A stretch of DNA of 64,000 bases from Polaribacter ponticola. Lineage in GTDB: Bacteria; Bacteroidota; Bacteroidia; Flavobacteriales; Flavobacteriaceae. Location of the stretch: NCBI RefSeq assembly GCF_026191475.2, contig NZ_JAOSLC020000003.1:837001-901000 (forward strand). The letters run 5' to 3'. The notes beneath the pieces were generated by a model. That model was not told the origin of the DNA. It did no database searches and saw only the letters and a program-made list of their open reading frames with translations. Numbering within the stretch: the first letter of the stretch is position 1; each line of letters starts with the position of its first letter. The position numbers and the translations under genes are program-made. Below, in pieces: positions 7,800 to 38,445 of this stretch.

Positions 7800-8613
7800 A
7801 TGACTTTTACAAAAACTACAGAACAAGATTCTAAATACAATCATTTAGAAAAAATGTCTATCTCTCAATTATTAAATAATATTAATAATGAGGACAAATT
7901 GGTACCATTAGCTGTTGAAAAAGCTTTACCACAAATAGAAAAACTAACTAAACAAATAGTTAATAAACTAAAGAATTGGTGGTAGATTATTCTATATTGG
8001 AGCTGGTACTTCTGGTCGATTAGGTATTCTAGACGCATCAGAATGCCCGCCAACTTTTGGTGTGCCTCATGAGTTAGTTGTTGGTTTAATTGCTGGTGGA
8101 GATTACGCTATAAGAAAAGCTGTTGAATTTGCAGAAGATTCCATAAACCAAGGTTGGCTAGATTTACAAGAACACAATATTTCTGATAAAGATGTTGTAG
8201 TTGGTATTGCTGCCTCTGGAACAACACCTTATGTAATTTCTGCGCTAAAAAAATGTAACGATAACAATATTATTACTGGTTCAATTTCATGTAATAAAAA
8301 TAGTCCTTTGTCTTTAACCTCTAAATTTCCGGTAGATGTAGTTGCCGGGCCAGAATTTGTAACTGGTAGTTCTAGAATGAAAGCAGGAACAGCTCAAAAA
8401 CTGGTTCTAAATATGTTATCTACTACAACAATGATTCAGCTTGGAAAAATAAAAGGTAACAAAATGGTAGATATGCAGCTATCTAACAACAAATTGGTAG
8501 ATAGAGGAGAAAAAATGTTAGTAAAAGAATTAAATATCGACCAAGAAACTGCAAGTAAATTATTGCAAGAATTTGGAAATGTAAGAAATGCAATTCAAAA
8601 TTATACAAAATGA
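7800..8613 (+). pseudogene. murQ: murQ, N-acetylmuramic acid 6-phosphate etherase (frameshifted)
   Basis: MurQ cleaves the lactyl ether of MurNAc-6-P to give GlcNAc-6-P and D-lactate during cell-wall recycling. The frame MTFTKTTEQDSKYNHLEKMS...KQIVNKLKN breaks at an extra T (7976/7977). Removing it restores [28 protein letters not shown], the SIS-domain phosphosugar motif, and the rest of the protein, including [20 protein letters not shown] and the C-terminal UBA-like helices. The repaired length is 270 aa, normal for the family. The single lesion with everything else conserved suggests a sequencing slip or very recent inactivation. The next gene overlaps the stop by 4 bases. Confidence 0.9.
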
Positions 8614-29246: not shown

Positions 29247-30289
29247 CTACTTAACTTTCAAATCTGCCATTTGAATTGGCTCTTTTGCTAGTTTATGTAA
29301 AACCTCTGGTGTTCTATTGTGTAATAATTGTATAATTCTATGCGGTGCAAAAACATATTTATTCGGAATAACATCACTCCATTTTTGCATTGTTTGTTTA
29401 GAGAAAAAACCTCCTTCTGTAAAAGTATCTCCAGAAAATACCTCATCAATTTTTAATGATAAAGCATAAGACTCAATAGGTATTTCTTTTTTAGCAATAG
29501 AACTTAAAATTACATGGGTAATTTCGTTTTCATCTTTAGCAAATACATTATGTAAAGGTCCTAAATCAATTCTTTTTATATGCTTTGGTTGTATCTCTGG
29601 CAATTTCCTATCAATTGTATAAGCCATTGTGTTTAATGCCATTTCTCTATCTGCACTTTCTTTTAAAACTTGATAAATTTTATCTTTGTCTTTTTCTATA
29701 CTTTTTCCTTCATAATTAAAATACAAAAAACACACAAAAGGTCTGTTGTGGCTTACATCAAAAAAACTCCAACTTGTTAAATACTGATAATTAGATCCTT
29801 TAGGCGCTTCTAATATTTTACCTTGTACAAACCGATTAAAAATAAACTTTCTCTCTACTGATGTATAATAGATTACAGAAGAAGCTTTAAATAAATCCGT
29901 TTTTTTAATGAGTTGTTTTTTACGTAAAAGTGTATCTAAAAAAGATTTTTTTAGCGTTTCTGTATCCACTAATTTATCTGCATATTCTTTTCTAAGCTCT
30001 AAATCGTTATACAAATACCTAAATTCTAAATAATTAGGAAAACCAGATTCTGTTAAATCAATTTTCATATTATCTTCTTCATCGTACATATACTTTATAC
30101 GCATTGCTTCGATAGAATACAATATTAAATCTGAATACTGTTTAAAAAAATTAACTCTTGATAGGTACAAAGCTGTTGCTGCTGAATGCTAACAATAAGT
30201 TCTTTCAGTACAAAATCTACCATTTTATGATAAAAAGTGTATTGCTCTTTCGAATTTAAAACAGCAGAATCTAAAGGAGTTGTTATCAT
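29247..30289 (-). CDS. Unknown 347-aa protein of the AAA cluster (one frameshift)
   Basis: The open frame starts at 30170, but one more A in the A7 run at 30144-30150 joins it to an upstream stretch beginning with ATG at 30289 (MITTPLDSAVLNSKEQYTFYHKMVD...). This gives 347 aa ending MADLKVK. No signal peptide or known domain is seen. The body is helical with conserved-looking stretches YLTSWSFFDVSHNRPFVCFLYF and NKYVFAPHRIIQLLHNRTPEV. The start lies 2 bases after the PemK stop, so the toxin-antitoxin pair now drives or shares its mRNA. Confidence 0.65.
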
Positions 30290-30291
30290 AG

Positions 30292-30624
30292 TTAATACTT
30301 CAAAATATCGTTCAAGGTTTTTTTGATGATTTCTACATCTTTTAGAGGAATTTTACCTAATTTTTTATCAAATCTAGTTTTAGAAACTGACCGAACATGA
30401 AAAGTTAATACTTCTGATGTTTTAATTAAACCATTATTTTCATTAGGTTTTATAATAAGATTTCCTTTATAGTTTTTGATACTCGTTGTTAACGGACAAA
30501 CAATTACAACTTGTAAATACTTGTTTAACATATCTCCGCTAATAATTACAGCAGGTCTTCTTCCACTTTGCTCACTACCTTTAGTTGGGTTTAAATATAA
30601 TTCCCAAATTTCTCCTTGCTTCAT
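30292..30624 (-). CDS. PemK/MazF-type mRNA interferase toxin
   Basis: Toxin of 110 aa with the family start MKQGEIWELYLNPTKGSEQSGRRPAVIISGD and the core VVIVCPLTTSIKNYKGNL. The conserved Arg and Thr of the MazF active site are visible in these segments. Its ATG overlaps the antitoxin stop at 30624, so the pair is translationally coupled. Confidence 0.92.
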   Translation of the reverse strand: MKQGEIWELYLNPTKGSEQSGRRPAVIISGDMLNKYLQVVIVCPLTTSIKNYKGNLIIKPNENNGLIKTSEVLTFHVRSVSKTRFDKKLGKIPLKDVEIIKKTLNDILKY

Positions 30625-30869
30625 TATTTAGAATCTGCATCGTTAACTGCGTTAAAATAATCTTGCATACCTTCTTCTGCAACCATTAAAATATCTTCAT
30701 CTGTTGCAGCTTGTTTATAAGACTTTATATAACTCGCTTTTTCTATTTGCTCTAAATACAACTCTAAAGCATTTTCTATTAACCTATTTTTAGGAAGCTT
30801 AAGTTCTTTTGCCAATACTGATAATTTCTCTAAAAGACTATCTGGTAAAGAAGATGTGAATGTTGCCAT
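30624..30869 (-). CDS. Ribbon-helix-helix antitoxin
   Basis: Protein of 81 aa with an RHH DNA-binding start (ATFTSSLPDSLLEKLSVLAKELKLPKNRLIENALELYLEQIEK) and an acidic tail that would wrap the PemK toxin. It is the first gene of the TA pair, whose promoter it should repress. Confidence 0.88.
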   Translation of the reverse strand: MATFTSSLPDSLLEKLSVLAKELKLPKNRLIENALELYLEQIEKASYIKSYKQAATDEDILMVAEEGMQDYFNAVNDADSK

Positions 30870-32670: not shown

Positions 32671-32702
32671 AAAAAAACCTCTTCGATAAAAAATCAAAGA
32701 GG
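32671..32702 (-). terminator. Intrinsic terminator downstream of the ICL-like gene
   Basis: Read on the minus strand, CCTCTTTGAT and ATCGAAGAGG pair around a T-rich loop, followed by seven T. It separates the glyoxylate genes from the AAA cluster. Confidence 0.85.
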
Positions 32703-32762
32703 CATAACTACTAAATAAAGTAAAAACTAAACAACTAAAAGTTTTTACCAACAAAGTTTACT

Positions 32763-33469
32763 TTAAACCGCATTAGAATAAATTTCATCAGAATTAAATT
32801 CAATTCTATCTGCTGTATTATTTAATAAAAACTTATACCCCATACCTACAAGTCTATCTTTTACCTTATCAACATCAAAAGAACCTCCAACTAATAACGG
32901 ACAACTGAATGCTAAATTCTTTTCTGGGCATTTAGATTTAAACTCTTTAGCAAAAGTTCTTGCTTTCTCTAAATCTAAAACTGATGATTCCAAACAGATA
33001 ACATCTGCATAAGGAGCAATCCTTAAACTTCTTTTAATTTTTTCTTTAAATCATTACTTCCATTTAAAAAATTGTTAGAAACCTTATCTCTAATACTAAA
33101 TTTAGTATTAGCATAAATTTTTGCGATAATTATTGATGAATTATCATTAACATCGGCAGTAAACCTAGCGTCTATTAAATTATTGATAATCTCTTTTTTA
33201 GAATTAGTATCATCTTTAACAATAATTCGATGACAACCCGACTCAATCAATAATTCTACTGATTTATAATCTGTAAAAGCACTAAATTTTTCTGTATAAT
33301 TTTGATTATAAAATTTAACTAAACTGTTAATTGATTTTCTTTTCTCAATTACATTTAAATCTTGAAATTTCACAACTTCTTCAGCTGTATATGGTCTCTT
33401 TACTCCTTTCCATCTTGGATTTGTCATCCAATCTGTTATTAGTTTTTGAATTTTTTCATTTGTTTTCAT
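32763..33469 (-). pseudogene. Shrunken isocitrate-lyase-like protein (frameshifted, catalytically dead)
   Basis: Two frames join at the T6 run 33038-33043 (one base short) into about 235 aa. The start matches ICL class-1 N-termini (ITDWMTNPRWKGVKRPYTAEEVVK). The middle GCHRIIVKDDTNSKKEIINNLIDARFTADVNDNSSIIIAKIYANTK follows the ICL segment after KKCGH. The end SLRIAPYADVICLESSVLDLEKARTFAKEFKSKCPEKNLAFSCPL...MGYKF follows the ICL segment around (W)CETSTPDLE and NCSPSFNW. The nucleophile motif KKCGH is ESGCH, ARTDA is AKIYA, and about 200 residues are missing. It lies 56 bases after aceA. It may be a regulator-like pseudo-enzyme or a gene remnant. Confidence 0.7.
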
Positions 33470-33525
33470 AATTTATAGCTTTTAGTATTAATTTAAGACT
33501 ATTAAAGTCTAATGCTTAAAAACAA

Positions 33526-35157
33526 CTAAGCAACACTACTCATTTTTTCTTTTTCCTCTTTAGATGATGACTCAGAAGAAAACTGATTAGAAGTATTATT
33601 TTCTCCACCAGCTTTTAACGCTTTATCTCCCGCAAAGAAAGATTTATGATCATCCCCCAAATCTGAACCTGCCATTCTTTGATGCTTAACACAAGAAACC
33701 CCTTTTCTAATCTCTTGTCTCTGCACTCCTTTTACATATGCTAACATTCCTTCTTCCCCAAAATAACCTTCTGTTAAATCATTCATATGCAAAGCAGTTG
33801 TATGATATGTTGGCAAAGTAATTAGATGATGAAAAATACCCGCTTCTCTAGCTCCATCCATTTGAAAAGTTTTAATTTTTTCATCTGCTCGTTTACACAA
33901 ACTAGATCCATCATATTTTGCATCCATTAAATTATTTCTATCATAACCAACAACATCAATTCCTGCTTCTAGCATTTCATCATACGCCTGATTACGGAAA
34001 TTTAATGTCCAGTTAAAAGAAGGAGAATTGTTATAAACTAATTTTGCATTTGGCACAACCTCTCTTACTCTATTTACCATGTGTGCTATTTGCTTTACAT
34101 TTGGCGTAGGTGTTTCAATCCATAACAAATCTGCACCATTTTGTAAACTTGTAACACAATCTAATACAACTCTATCGATATTAGTACCTTCTTTAAACTT
34201 ATACAAACCGTTTAGTAATCTAACCGGACGAACTAATTTACCATCTCTTTTTAATAAAACATCGTCTTCTCTTGCTTGATCAATTGCAATTTCTTCTGCC
34301 TCTACAAACGCTAAATATTGCGACGCTAAATCTCCTAGCTCTTGACTAACTGGTAATTTTTGAGTTAAACCCGCACCTTCAGAATCCGTTCTAGCAACAA
34401 TTACTCCATCATCTACACCTAATTCTAAAAACGCATATCTAATAGCATTTAATTTTGCAACAAAATCTTCATGCGGCACAGTAACTTTTCCATCTTGATG
34501 ACCACATTGTTTTGCATCTGAAACCTGATTTTCTATCTGAATAGCACAAGCACCAGCTTCAATCATCTTTTTAGTTAACAAATAAGTTGCTTCTTCGTTA
34601 CCAAAACCAGCATCGATATCTGCAATAATTGGAACAATATGCGTTTCAAAATTATCTATTTGATCTTGCACATCTTCTCCGCTTTCTTTTCTTCGGAATA
34701 AATCATTTAATTCAATTGCATCTGCCTGACGTAAAAAGTCATAAATCTCAGCAATTAAACTTGGTACTGCTGTTTTTTCGTGCATAGATTGATCTGGTAA
34801 TGGTCCAAATTCCGAACGTAATGCCGCAACCATCCAACCCGATAAATACAAGTAACTTTTATTTGTTGTTTTATGATGTTTCTTTACAGCAATCATTTTC
34901 TGCTGAGCAACAAACCCATGCCAGCAACCTAAAGATTGTGTATAGTTAGATGAATCTGCATCATATTCTGCCATGTCTTTTCTCATAATAGCCGCAGTAT
35001 ATTTAGCAATATCTAAACCCGTTTTAAATCGATTTTGACTTGCCATTCTTGCAGCGCTTTCAGAATTTATTGCATTCCAAGAATTACCATATTTTGCCTT
35101 TAAACTTCTTACTGTTTCTAACGCTGAACTATACTTGTTTTGTGATAAATTATTCAT
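33526..35157 (-). CDS. aceA: Isocitrate lyase
   Basis: Splits isocitrate into glyoxylate and succinate, first step of the glyoxylate bypass. The protein is 543 aa, the long type known from Pseudomonas (start ALETVRSLKAKYGNSWNAINSESAARM, QNRFKTGLDIAKYTAAIMRKDMAEYDADSS). Active-site motif AKQCGH, then VIVARTDSEGAG, ADLLWIETPTPN and NNSPSFNW are intact. It lies 79 bases downstream of aceB on the same strand, so they form an aceBA operon. Confidence 0.96.
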   Translation of the reverse strand: MNNLSQNKYSSALETVRSLKAKYGNSWNAINSESAARMASQNRFKTGLDIAKYTAAIMRKDMAEYDADSSNYTQSLGCWHGFVAQQKMIAVKKHHKTTNKSYLYLSGWMVAALRSEFGPLPDQSMHEKTAVPSLIAEIYDFLRQADAIELNDLFRRKESGEDVQDQIDNFETHIVPIIADIDAGFGNEEATYLLTKKMIEAGACAIQIENQVSDAKQCGHQDGKVTVPHEDFVAKLNAIRYAFLELGVDDGVIVARTDSEGAGLTQKLPVSQELGDLASQYLAFVEAEEIAIDQAREDDVLLKRDGKLVRPVRLLNGLYKFKEGTNIDRVVLDCVTSLQNGADLLWIETPTPNVKQIAHMVNRVREVVPNAKLVYNNSPSFNWTLNFRNQAYDEMLEAGIDVVGYDRNNLMDAKYDGSSLCKRADEKIKTFQMDGAREAGIFHHLITLPTYHTTALHMNDLTEGYFGEEGMLAYVKGVQRQEIRKGVSCVKHQRMAGSDLGDDHKSFFAGDKALKAGGENNTSNQFSSESSSKEEKEKMSSVA

Positions 35158-35236: not shown

Positions 35237-36832
35237 TTAAATATAATCGTAAGCCGATAATGTTAAAAACTCTTTATACTCTTTAGACAAAACCAACTCA
35301 TCAAAGAGCTGAATTGCTAATTCAAATTTCCCTTCCCTAAAACCATCTTCTCCTACTAATAGTTTAATTTTCTCTAATTCTTCTCGTTTTAATAATTGAT
35401 ACATAGCGTGATTAAAATTTCTACCATCTTGAATTTGAACACTATTATGCAACCATAACCAAACTTGTGTTCTAGAAATTTCTGCAGTTGCAGCATCTTC
35501 CATTAAATTATACAATGCCGCAGCACCATTACCTCTTAACCAGCTTTCTATATATAAAATTCCAACATTAATATTCTTTCTTATACCCGACTCAGAAATA
35601 TGACCCTTTGGCATTTCTACCAAATCAGACTCAGAAACTTCTACATCATTTCTTTTAATATGAATTTGATTTTTTGTAATCATATTTTCATTAAAAACAT
35701 TCATTGCTACCTCTACTAAACCAGGATGCGCAACCCAAGTACCATCGTGCCCATTTTTAACTTCTTGCTCTTTATCTGCATATACTTTTGCAAATGCTGC
35801 TTCATTTGCAACATCATCATTTTTAATTGGAATCTGAGCAGCCATTCCTCCCATTGCATGTACATTTCTTTTATGACATTTCTTTATTACTAACAATGAA
35901 TACGATCTCATAAACGGAGAACTCATAGTTACTTGATCTCTGTTTGGCACCATAAAACCAGTATGATTTCTAAATTTTTTGATGTAAGAAAAAATGTAAT
36001 CCCAACGACCACAGTTTAAACCAGCCATATGATTTCTTAGCTCATAAATAATTTCATCTAACTGAAAACTAGCAGTAATAGTTTCTACCAAAACAGTTGC
36101 TTTAATTGTATTTTGAGCAATATTTAAATACTCTTGCGCAAATACAAAAACATCATTCCAAAAACGTGCTTCTAAATAGTGCTCTAATTTTGGTAAGTAA
36201 AAATAAGTAGCAGACCCTTTTTCTTGTAATGTTTTAATATTATGAAAAAAGTACAATCCGAAATCTACTAATGAACCAGACATTTGCTCTCCTTCTACAG
36301 TAAAATGCTTTTCATTTAAATGCAAACCTCTAGGACGAACCAACAAAGTTGCTGTCTCATTATTTAATTGATATGATTTATCTTTTTTCTCATTATAAAA
36401 CGATATTGTTTTATTATTTGCATCCCTTAAATTTATTTGACCCTCTAAATTATTATAGATACTTGGAGAATTACTATCCTCAAAATCTGCCATAAAAGTC
36501 TTAGCACCAGAATTTAAAGCATTAATAACCATTTTTCTATCCACTGGCCCAGTAATCTCTACTCTTCTATCCAATAAATCTTCTGGCAACGGAGCACAAA
36601 CCCAATTAGATTCACGTATGCTTTTTGTTTCCGCAGGAAAAGAAGGAAAATTCCCAGCATCAAAATACGCTTGCTCAACTTCCCTTTCAGAAAGCAAAGA
36701 CAATCTTCCTGCATTAAATTTATCATGTAATTCCAATAAAAACAATTGTGCATCATTTGTTAAAATTTCCTGAAAACCATCAACCTTAAAACCTTTAAAA
36801 TCAATTTGTTTAGCTATAATATTTTCTTCCAT
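35237..36832 (-). CDS. aceB: Malate synthase A
   Basis: Condenses glyoxylate with acetyl-CoA to malate. The protein is 531 aa. Seen: VEITGPVDRKMVINALNSGAKTFMADFEDSNSP, the signature LNCGRWDYIFSYIKKFR and the C-terminal catalytic region LRGNGAAALYNLMEDAATAEISRTQVWLWLHN. It is first gene of aceBA. A complete promoter with a palindromic operator lies just upstream, facing the divergent regulator. Confidence 0.96.
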   Translation of the reverse strand: MEENIIAKQIDFKGFKVDGFQEILTNDAQLFLLELHDKFNAGRLSLLSEREVEQAYFDAGNFPSFPAETKSIRESNWVCAPLPEDLLDRRVEITGPVDRKMVINALNSGAKTFMADFEDSNSPSIYNNLEGQINLRDANNKTISFYNEKKDKSYQLNNETATLLVRPRGLHLNEKHFTVEGEQMSGSLVDFGLYFFHNIKTLQEKGSATYFYLPKLEHYLEARFWNDVFVFAQEYLNIAQNTIKATVLVETITASFQLDEIIYELRNHMAGLNCGRWDYIFSYIKKFRNHTGFMVPNRDQVTMSSPFMRSYSLLVIKKCHKRNVHAMGGMAAQIPIKNDDVANEAAFAKVYADKEQEVKNGHDGTWVAHPGLVEVAMNVFNENMITKNQIHIKRNDVEVSESDLVEMPKGHISESGIRKNINVGILYIESWLRGNGAAALYNLMEDAATAEISRTQVWLWLHNSVQIQDGRNFNHAMYQLLKREELEKIKLLVGEDGFREGKFELAIQLFDELVLSKEYKEFLTLSAYDYI

Positions 36833-36960: not shown

Positions 36961-38445
36961 ATGATGATAGAAGACGAATACATCCGTTTAATTTTTGGCC
37001 TAAAACTCAAGCAAATAAGAACAGAAAAGAACCTTTCTCTATTTGGTTTAGCTAAATTATCTGGCTTATCTAAGTCATATTTAAACGAAATTGAAAAAGG
37101 AAAAAAATATCCTAAAACTGATAAAATATTATTACTTGCAGAAAGTTTAGAGATACCTTATGATCATATGGTGTCTTTAAAACTAGATAAAAACTTAGCA
37201 CCAATTGGCGATATATTACAATCTAAAATATTAAAAGAAATTCCGTTAGAACTTTTTGGAATTAAAGAAAATAACTTAATTGATATTGTTGCAAATGCAC
37301 CTGCAAAAGTGAATGCGTTTATAAGTACAATTATAAAAATTTCTCAAAATTACAACTTAACAAGAGAAAGTTTCTTTTTAGCCTCTTTACGTTCTTACCA
37401 AGAAGCACACAATAATTATTTTGAAGACATCGAAAATAGTGTAGAAAAATTCGCTAAATCTTATCATTTAGATTTATCAAAAAAAATATCATCTAATGAT
37501 TTAGAAGAAATTTTAATTGAAGAGTTTGGCTACACAATAAACACAGATGAACTAGAAAAACATGATGATTTAGACGGCTTAAGAAATATTTTTATTCCAG
37601 AAAAGAAAATATTATTAATAGATAAAGAAATTACTGAAGCACAGAAAACTTTTATTTACGCTAAAGAAATAGCATACCATTTCCTGGAAATAAAAGATAG
37701 ATTATACACTTTTCCTTGGATAAAATTTGAAAGTTTTGACCAGGTTTTAAATAATTTTATTGCTTCTTATTTTGCTGGATCTTTAATAATACCAAGAAAA
37801 AGCTTAACTAACAGTCTAACAAAATTCTTCGAACAAGAAGATTGGAAACCATTAGATTTACTTAATATTATTAATCACTTTAATTGTTCTCACGAAACTT
37901 TCTACCAGCGTTTAACAAATATTTTACCAAAATATTTTAATATAAAAAATTTATTTTTCTTACGCTTTACACACAAAAAAGACTCACCAGAATTTAGGTT
38001 AAATAAAGAACTACATATTACACAACAACAAGCTCCACATGCAAATAGAAAAAACGAACACTACTGCAGAAGATGGATCTCTATAAAAACAATTCAACAA
38101 TTAGAAAATTCGAAAAGTTTAAAACCTACTTTTGATGTGCAAATTTCATCTTATGTAAATCAGAAAAATGAATATTTAGTACTATCCTCAGCCACTTCAG
38201 ATCCATTTAAAAAAGATATTAGCAGAAGTGTTAGTCTCGGAATGCTACTTTCTCCTCACCTAAAAAAGAAACTTCATTTCTTTAATGAGAATACATTTAC
38301 AAAAAAAACAGTAGGTGTAACTTGCGAAACATGCGCTGTAAAAAACTGCAGCGAAAGAGTAGCAAAACCAACTAGATTAGAAAAAGAAAATAAATATAAT
38401 AATATAGCTAGTACCGTTGAAAGTATAATAAAGTCTTATACTTAA
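36961..38445 (+). CDS. XRE-family RamB/ScfR-like regulator of acetate/glyoxylate metabolism
   Basis: Regulator of 494 aa. An N-terminal HTH (about 10-65, LFGLAKLSGLSKSYLNEIEKGKKYPK) is followed by an IrrE-like middle region where the zinc-peptidase HExxH is absent (AKEIAYHFLE), then a DUF2083-type C-terminus with four Cys (GVTCETCAVKNCSERVAKP). This is the layout of RamB and ScfR, which sense short-chain acyl-CoA state and control aceA/aceB or propionate genes. It is divergent from aceBA with a palindrome between, and is followed by an acyl-CoA carboxylase gene after 39 bases. Confidence 0.85.
   Translation: MMIEDEYIRLIFGLKLKQIRTEKNLSLFGLAKLSGLSKSYLNEIEKGKKYPKTDKILLLAESLEIPYDHMVSLKLDKNLAPIGDILQSKILKEIPLELFGIKENNLIDIVANAPAKVNAFISTIIKISQNYNLTRESFFLASLRSYQEAHNNYFEDIENSVEKFAKSYHLDLSKKISSNDLEEILIEEFGYTINTDELEKHDDLDGLRNIFIPEKKILLIDKEITEAQKTFIYAKEIAYHFLEIKDRLYTFPWIKFESFDQVLNNFIASYFAGSLIIPRKSLTNSLTKFFEQEDWKPLDLLNIINHFNCSHETFYQRLTNILPKYFNIKNLFFLRFTHKKDSPEFRLNKELHITQQQAPHANRKNEHYCRRWISIKTIQQLENSKSLKPTFDVQISSYVNQKNEYLVLSSATSDPFKKDISRSVSLGMLLSPHLKKKLHFFNENTFTKKTVGVTCETCAVKNCSERVAKPTRLEKENKYNNIASTVESIIKSYT

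Follow-up and report, generated by a model that had tools for sequence, protein, structure and literature searches.

The DNA analysed here, called the window below, is a stretch of 64,000 nucleotides from Polaribacter ponticola (NZ_JAOSLC020000003.1, positions 837,001 to 901,000). It harbors aceB for malate synthase, aceA for a long isocitrate lyase (ICL) and, behind aceA on the same strand, a shrunken ICL gene to which we refer as the remnant (Table 1). A helix-turn-helix regulator is encoded divergently from aceB. The first frame of the remnant starts at 33469 and is open for 148 codons until it stops at 33023, and reading resumes in the -1 frame as far as 32763. We call its source family, the NF011645-type ICLs, class-1, the window's genome G000, and the one other genome in which the gene was found, a metagenome bin, G004. 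The gene order regulator, aceB, long aceA and remnant is the same in G000 and G004. A scan for terminator-like sites gave none between aceA and the remnant and one right after the remnant, out of two in the region scanned, where 1.2 are expected by chance. In 9 of 28 other congeners with a long ICL, a hairpin of the type CCTCTTTGA..TCAAAGAGG lies no more than 120 bases behind aceA, and a hairpin of similar type also follows the remnant in both G000 and G004. Co-transcription of aceA and the remnant is likely. In G004 the gene of an 1832-amino-acid protein (L032:1742-7240) comes directly after the remnant; relatives of this protein are found behind aceA in several other congeners, and none is present behind the remnant in the window.

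Table 1. Features of the aceBA region in the window, with positions counted from its first nucleotide
Feature	Position	Strand	Remarks
Terminator-like hairpin after the remnant	32677..32703	-	
Remnant, derived from class-1 ICL, stripped	32763..33469	-	one frame break at 33043..33038
3' piece of the remnant, -1 frame (APYADVICLE..KNLAFSC..GYKFLLN)	32763..33034	-	open; dN/dS 0.46
6-base A-run, site of the frame slip	33043..33038	-	absent in G004; possibly an assembly error
N-terminal arm of the remnant, codons 1-33	33371..33469	-	dN/dS 0.05 against G004; 91% identical
Spacer, 56 bases after the aceA stop	33470..33525	-	no terminator-like site
aceA, long ICL of the NF005074 type, intact	33526..35157	-	assigned by family model
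aceB, malate synthase	35237..36832	-	
Helix-turn-helix regulator, divergent from aceB	36961..38445	+	conserved beside aceB; IrrE-like domain match just under the cut-off

Against the Pfam ICL model, the 5' piece of the window copy scores 18.8 bits (E 6.4e-4), which is under the cut-off of 26, and the 3' piece exceeds it with 28.2 bits (E 8.8e-7). The unbroken G004 protein reaches 40.4 bits with PF00463, over the gathering cut-off of 26. In NCBIfam, NF011645 is closest to both window pieces (E 8.3e-12 and 9.4e-11); the scores of 44.7 and 41.2 bits for the pieces and 92.9 bits for the G004 protein do not reach the equivalog cut-off of 562. The NCBIfam matches of the remnant are NF011645 and TIGR01346 and do not include NF005074, the family to which the adjoining aceA belongs (986.5 bits). 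Because the family models separate the two genes, the remnant is derived from a class-1 ICL, as the earlier note had proposed, and its origin as a copy of aceA is ruled out. The remnant is homologous to class-1 ICLs (NF011645 / PF00463) in the N-terminal arm and around the motifs LIDARxxADVN, APYAD, KNLAxSC and GYK; unlike them it is about half as long, lacks all seven tested active-site motifs and stays far under the NCBIfam cut-off. With the long ICL of NF005074 it shares the superfamily and the operon, whereas the family model is different. The G004 protein can be matched to the solved ICL structure 1igw over the arm and, separately, over residues 72-193. A structure prediction for this protein from three rows (with the two window pieces) gave a pLDDT of 39.9 and a pTM of 0.29, which is too poor to use.

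The catalytic apparatus has disappeared from the remnant. Seven motifs, which we take to represent the ICL active site (the KKCGH catalytic loop and six others), were checked on 23 full-length class-1 relatives, three from Polaribacter and 20 from the family sample; six are invariant in all 23 and ARTDAD is present in 20. Neither remnant copy contains any of the seven, which confirms the loss of active-site motifs noticed earlier, and as a homolog of an enzyme that has lost the catalytic residues the remnant is in this respect like a pseudoenzyme. The particular change of KKCGH to ESGCH that had been read from the sequence is not borne out: the stretch bearing KKCGH is 14 residues shorter in both copies, so that the motif is deleted, and ESGCH aligns elsewhere. 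Four distances between anchor motifs, which are independent of any alignment, are equal in the two remnants, at 13, 23, 23 and 2 residues. In three full Polaribacter ICLs the values for three of them are 27, 28 and 11 residues, so the remnants are shorter by 14, 5 and 9; the pattern used for the fourth was unmatched in the three full enzymes, and in a five-row alignment this distance is likewise shorter in the remnants, by about 13. Both remnants also stop at the same point in that alignment ('..AV'). The first half contains a large deletion whose edges move between alignments, and the G000 and G004 copies differ there. Since the shortening is common to both copies, most of the shrinkage predates their separation. 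ICL activity is unlikely because the active-site loops are gone, and the same holds for binding of a small ligand in the old pocket, including the C2 ligand suggested in the earlier note.

The remnant is rare. It was found in 2 of 166 Polaribacter genomes, G000 and G004, and the G004 copy lies in the same place behind the long aceA with the same internal shortenings. The orthologs next to aceA that were to be sought in other flavobacteria are thus limited to this one case. A full-length class-1 ICL is present in three of the 166 genomes (G091, G145 and G149) and a long ICL in 74, a few of them fragmentary; the search for the long ICL matched 77, from which these three were dropped as they match through their class-1 ICL only (41-45%). 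Among 397 genomes of the family, 20 besides G000 have a class-1 ICL, its open frame being 428-461 amino acids long, and 35 besides G000 have a long ICL (E up to 1e-100). No genome of the 397 has both a full class-1 and a long ICL, and none of the other family matches is of the short form. At the level of the order, 90 of 395 genomes match; all matches listed except that of G000 lie in open frames of at least 356 codons, with no short form among them. A contig search gave the G004 contig as sole match, records of the window's own or a very near genome possibly being left out. No remnant trace was detected at E <0.05 in 17 other long-ICL congeners, and in the region downstream of aceA in 28 such congeners, including those 17, the best match to a degraded trace had an E of 0.079 (about 1.5 kb of flank each, in one case 184 bases only). 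The genus can evidently do without the remnant, as no convincing trace stands behind aceA in these 28. In the collection of literature searched, there was no paper on an ICL remnant stripped in this way.

The position of the remnant is informative when compared to that of its full-length relatives. In all 23 fetched loci with a full class-1 ICL, this gene stands 3' of aceB on the same strand, with a gap of 39-338 bases. On the other side of aceB the same regulator is encoded divergently; one contig breaks off within the regulator gene. Because the full-length class-1 ICL occupies the place behind aceB in relatives, the remnant looks like a displaced resident gene. One of these loci, in G149 (L029:5954-10477), has a regulator and an aceB that are 51% and 61% identical to those of the window, more distant than in the other congeners examined; its regulator-aceB-ICL set is perhaps a separate acquisition.

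The frame of the remnant appears to be under selection. Using simple counting (NG86) on the two available sequences, of which that of G004 stems from a metagenome bin and that of G000 is frame-broken, we obtained a dN/dS of 0.37 (dN 0.35; dS 0.93, which is near saturation). This is well below the value near 1 that the earlier note took as the sign of a decaying gene, and it agrees with the selection which that note had read from the open frame. Four neighboring genes gave 0.056 (aceA), 0.125 (aceB), 0.04 (regulator) and 0.033 (a gene for 446 amino acids). Within the remnant the segment from codon 34 to the break has the same ratio as the piece behind it (0.46), and codons 1-33 are far below both. 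In simulations at dN/dS = 1, repeated 300 times for each of three distances, ratios as low as observed occurred in 0/300 for the whole gene and for the arm, in 1-2/300 for the middle and in 0-1/300 for the 3' part; an earlier neutral set, which covered the whole gene, the arm and the remainder at five distances with 200 runs per distance, gave 0/200 throughout. The simulations contain no alignment step, which may bias the comparison towards selection, although few gaps interrupt the long aligned blocks. Differences between the copies number 62, 50 and 94 at the three codon positions (p 0.0005), and 59, 49 and 82 outside the arm (p 0.011). Without selection, the frame was still open in 7.5-8% of 400 simulations at 0.05 changes per site, in 0.25-0.5% at 0.1 and in none of 400 at 0.2 or more. 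The value of dN outside the arm is high (0.38-0.45), so most of the remnant is weakly constrained.

The arm behaves differently from the rest. In the 23 full class-1 ICLs, which are presumably working enzymes judging from length and motifs, its mean identity is 68%, as compared to 80% in the other columns kept by the remnants, and the pairs in which it is better conserved than the rest number only 18 of 253. The remnant pair shows the inverse order, with 91% in the arm and 45% in the rest. The remnant arms are 72% and 68% identical to those of the working ICLs, as close as these are to each other, and the rest falls to 38% and 46%. That catalysis was dismantled and the arm retained is the most surprising result of this work.

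The best surviving alternative is that the remnant is a decaying pseudogene, a displaced ICL on its way out, in which the signal of selection is left over from the enzyme or inflated by the method. The rapid change of the protein (46.6% identity between G000 and G004, compared to 93.6% for AceA) and the lack of a trace in the other long-ICL congeners examined agree with such decay, as does the frame break in the window copy, which was correctly placed at a single homopolymer by the earlier note. The G004 copy, however, encodes 227 amino acids in an unbroken frame without a stop, the A-run at which the window copy breaks is missing from it, and neither window piece contains an internal stop. 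Moreover, a neighboring gene of about 349 codons (29247..30289, - strand), intact in six congeners, has a frame break in its window copy, which lies at a run of seven bases (30144-30150). This points to run-length errors in the window assembly (94.29% complete, 5 contigs), so the break in the remnant says little for decay, and an assembly error is the more likely explanation of it. If real, the break could be recent and yet have left no stops: among 400 simulations without selection of the 91 codons behind it, 158 were stop-free at 0.05 changes per site and 62 at 0.1. At such small distances the open 3' piece would be compatible with decay. Against decay stand the dN/dS values well under 1 in all three parts, where a pseudogene is marked by a ratio near 1 and accumulating stops. 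The equal anchor distances, which place the shrinkage before the split of the copies, further imply that the signal is unlikely to be a legacy of the time as an enzyme. We therefore regard the pseudogene explanation as a serious one that is nevertheless somewhat unlikely.

Two further observations concern other genes of the window. A gene which we take to be murQ-like (SIS domain, 7800..8613, + strand) changes frame near 7972-7982, where there is no long base run; this break was read from the window alone, the comparison with orthologs being made for the gene of about 349 codons only. Between the latter and the gene for 446 amino acids lies a pair encoding a MazF/PemK-like toxin (110 amino acids) and a ribbon-helix-helix antitoxin (81 amino acids; 30292..30869, - strand), and a relative of the toxin with 88% identity is present in locus L095.

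The trees raise the question whether a class-1 fragment, or an already shrunken gene, arrived beside aceA by horizontal transfer. The regulator tree pairs G000 with G004 as sisters (100/99) within the long-ICL group, among species without the remnant, whereas the aceB tree has a branch, supported at 98/98, that groups G004 with three remnant-less species and leaves G000 outside. The trees thus disagree, and vertical descent requires several separate later losses. On the other hand, insertion of the long ICL in front of a resident ICL would leave the latter in exactly the place behind the long ICL where the remnant is found. In addition, two genomes with branches close to the long-ICL group, G091 and G145, have a full class-1 ICL behind aceB, and a donor was not found. 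When both remnants were included in a tree of class-1 ICLs, their tips had a length of 10 and their placement was uninformative. Transfer seems improbable to us. Programmed -1 frameshifting to give two products, suggested by a slip on the A-run after which the -1 frame continues the protein, is rejected as hardly credible, because the frame of the G004 copy is continuous and lacks such a run and because an unrelated gene in the window breaks at a run as well.

We favor, with a confidence slightly above even, the explanation that the remnant is a displaced resident class-1 ICL which was stripped and then kept as a co-produced, non-catalytic protein, a pseudoenzyme with an arm under selection. 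The aceB operon would originally have contained a class-1 ICL, behind which reading stand the homology and position of the remnant. A long ICL of different construction would then have taken the place behind aceB, and in-frame deletions would have removed the catalytic segments of the old gene, now redundant, before G000 and G004 separated, as the shared shortening and the loss of motifs suggest. Instead of being discarded it would have stayed between aceA and the terminator, its frame, and above all the 33-residue arm, being held since then by purifying selection, with which the open frame in G004 and the dN/dS below 1 are consistent. If transcribed with aceA and translated, the remnant would be made together with AceA as a small non-catalytic protein. 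The arm, perhaps borne by the leftover part of the barrel, might dock on another protein, most simply a member of the glyoxylate shunt; the partner and the effect are guesses on our part. The more specific proposal that the displaced enzyme became a loop-stripped part-barrel, with the arm as main target of selection, that acts as a co-expressed modulator of the replacing ICL or of another glyoxylate-shunt protein is tentative, and we consider it unlikely to hold in all its parts.

Operon genes are known to be replaced by distant versions, and to our knowledge an intermediate stage of such a replacement is rarely observed. In the present case the replaced enzyme appears to stand next to its successor, without catalysis yet apparently under selection. 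If confirmed, the case would show which parts are involved when a displaced enzyme turns into a non-enzymatic protein, and it would provide a small test system that consists of one arm, one operon and related species with and without the remnant.

Two known systems are related to the one described here. The prozyme of S-adenosylmethionine decarboxylase is reported to be a pseudoenzyme that regulates its active paralog (PMC5201418). Similar to what is seen in P. ponticola, a catalytically dead relative and an active enzyme occur in one genome; unlike the prozyme, the remnant has lost whole loops and about half of its length, the active enzyme beside it belongs to another family model, and an interaction between the two is hypothetical. 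The malate synthase pseudogene of placental mammals, for which stop codons are reported (PMC1630690), is another glyoxylate-cycle gene that lost its function in place and was recognised by conserved gene order. In contrast to that gene, the remnant is open in G004 and its dN/dS is below 1.
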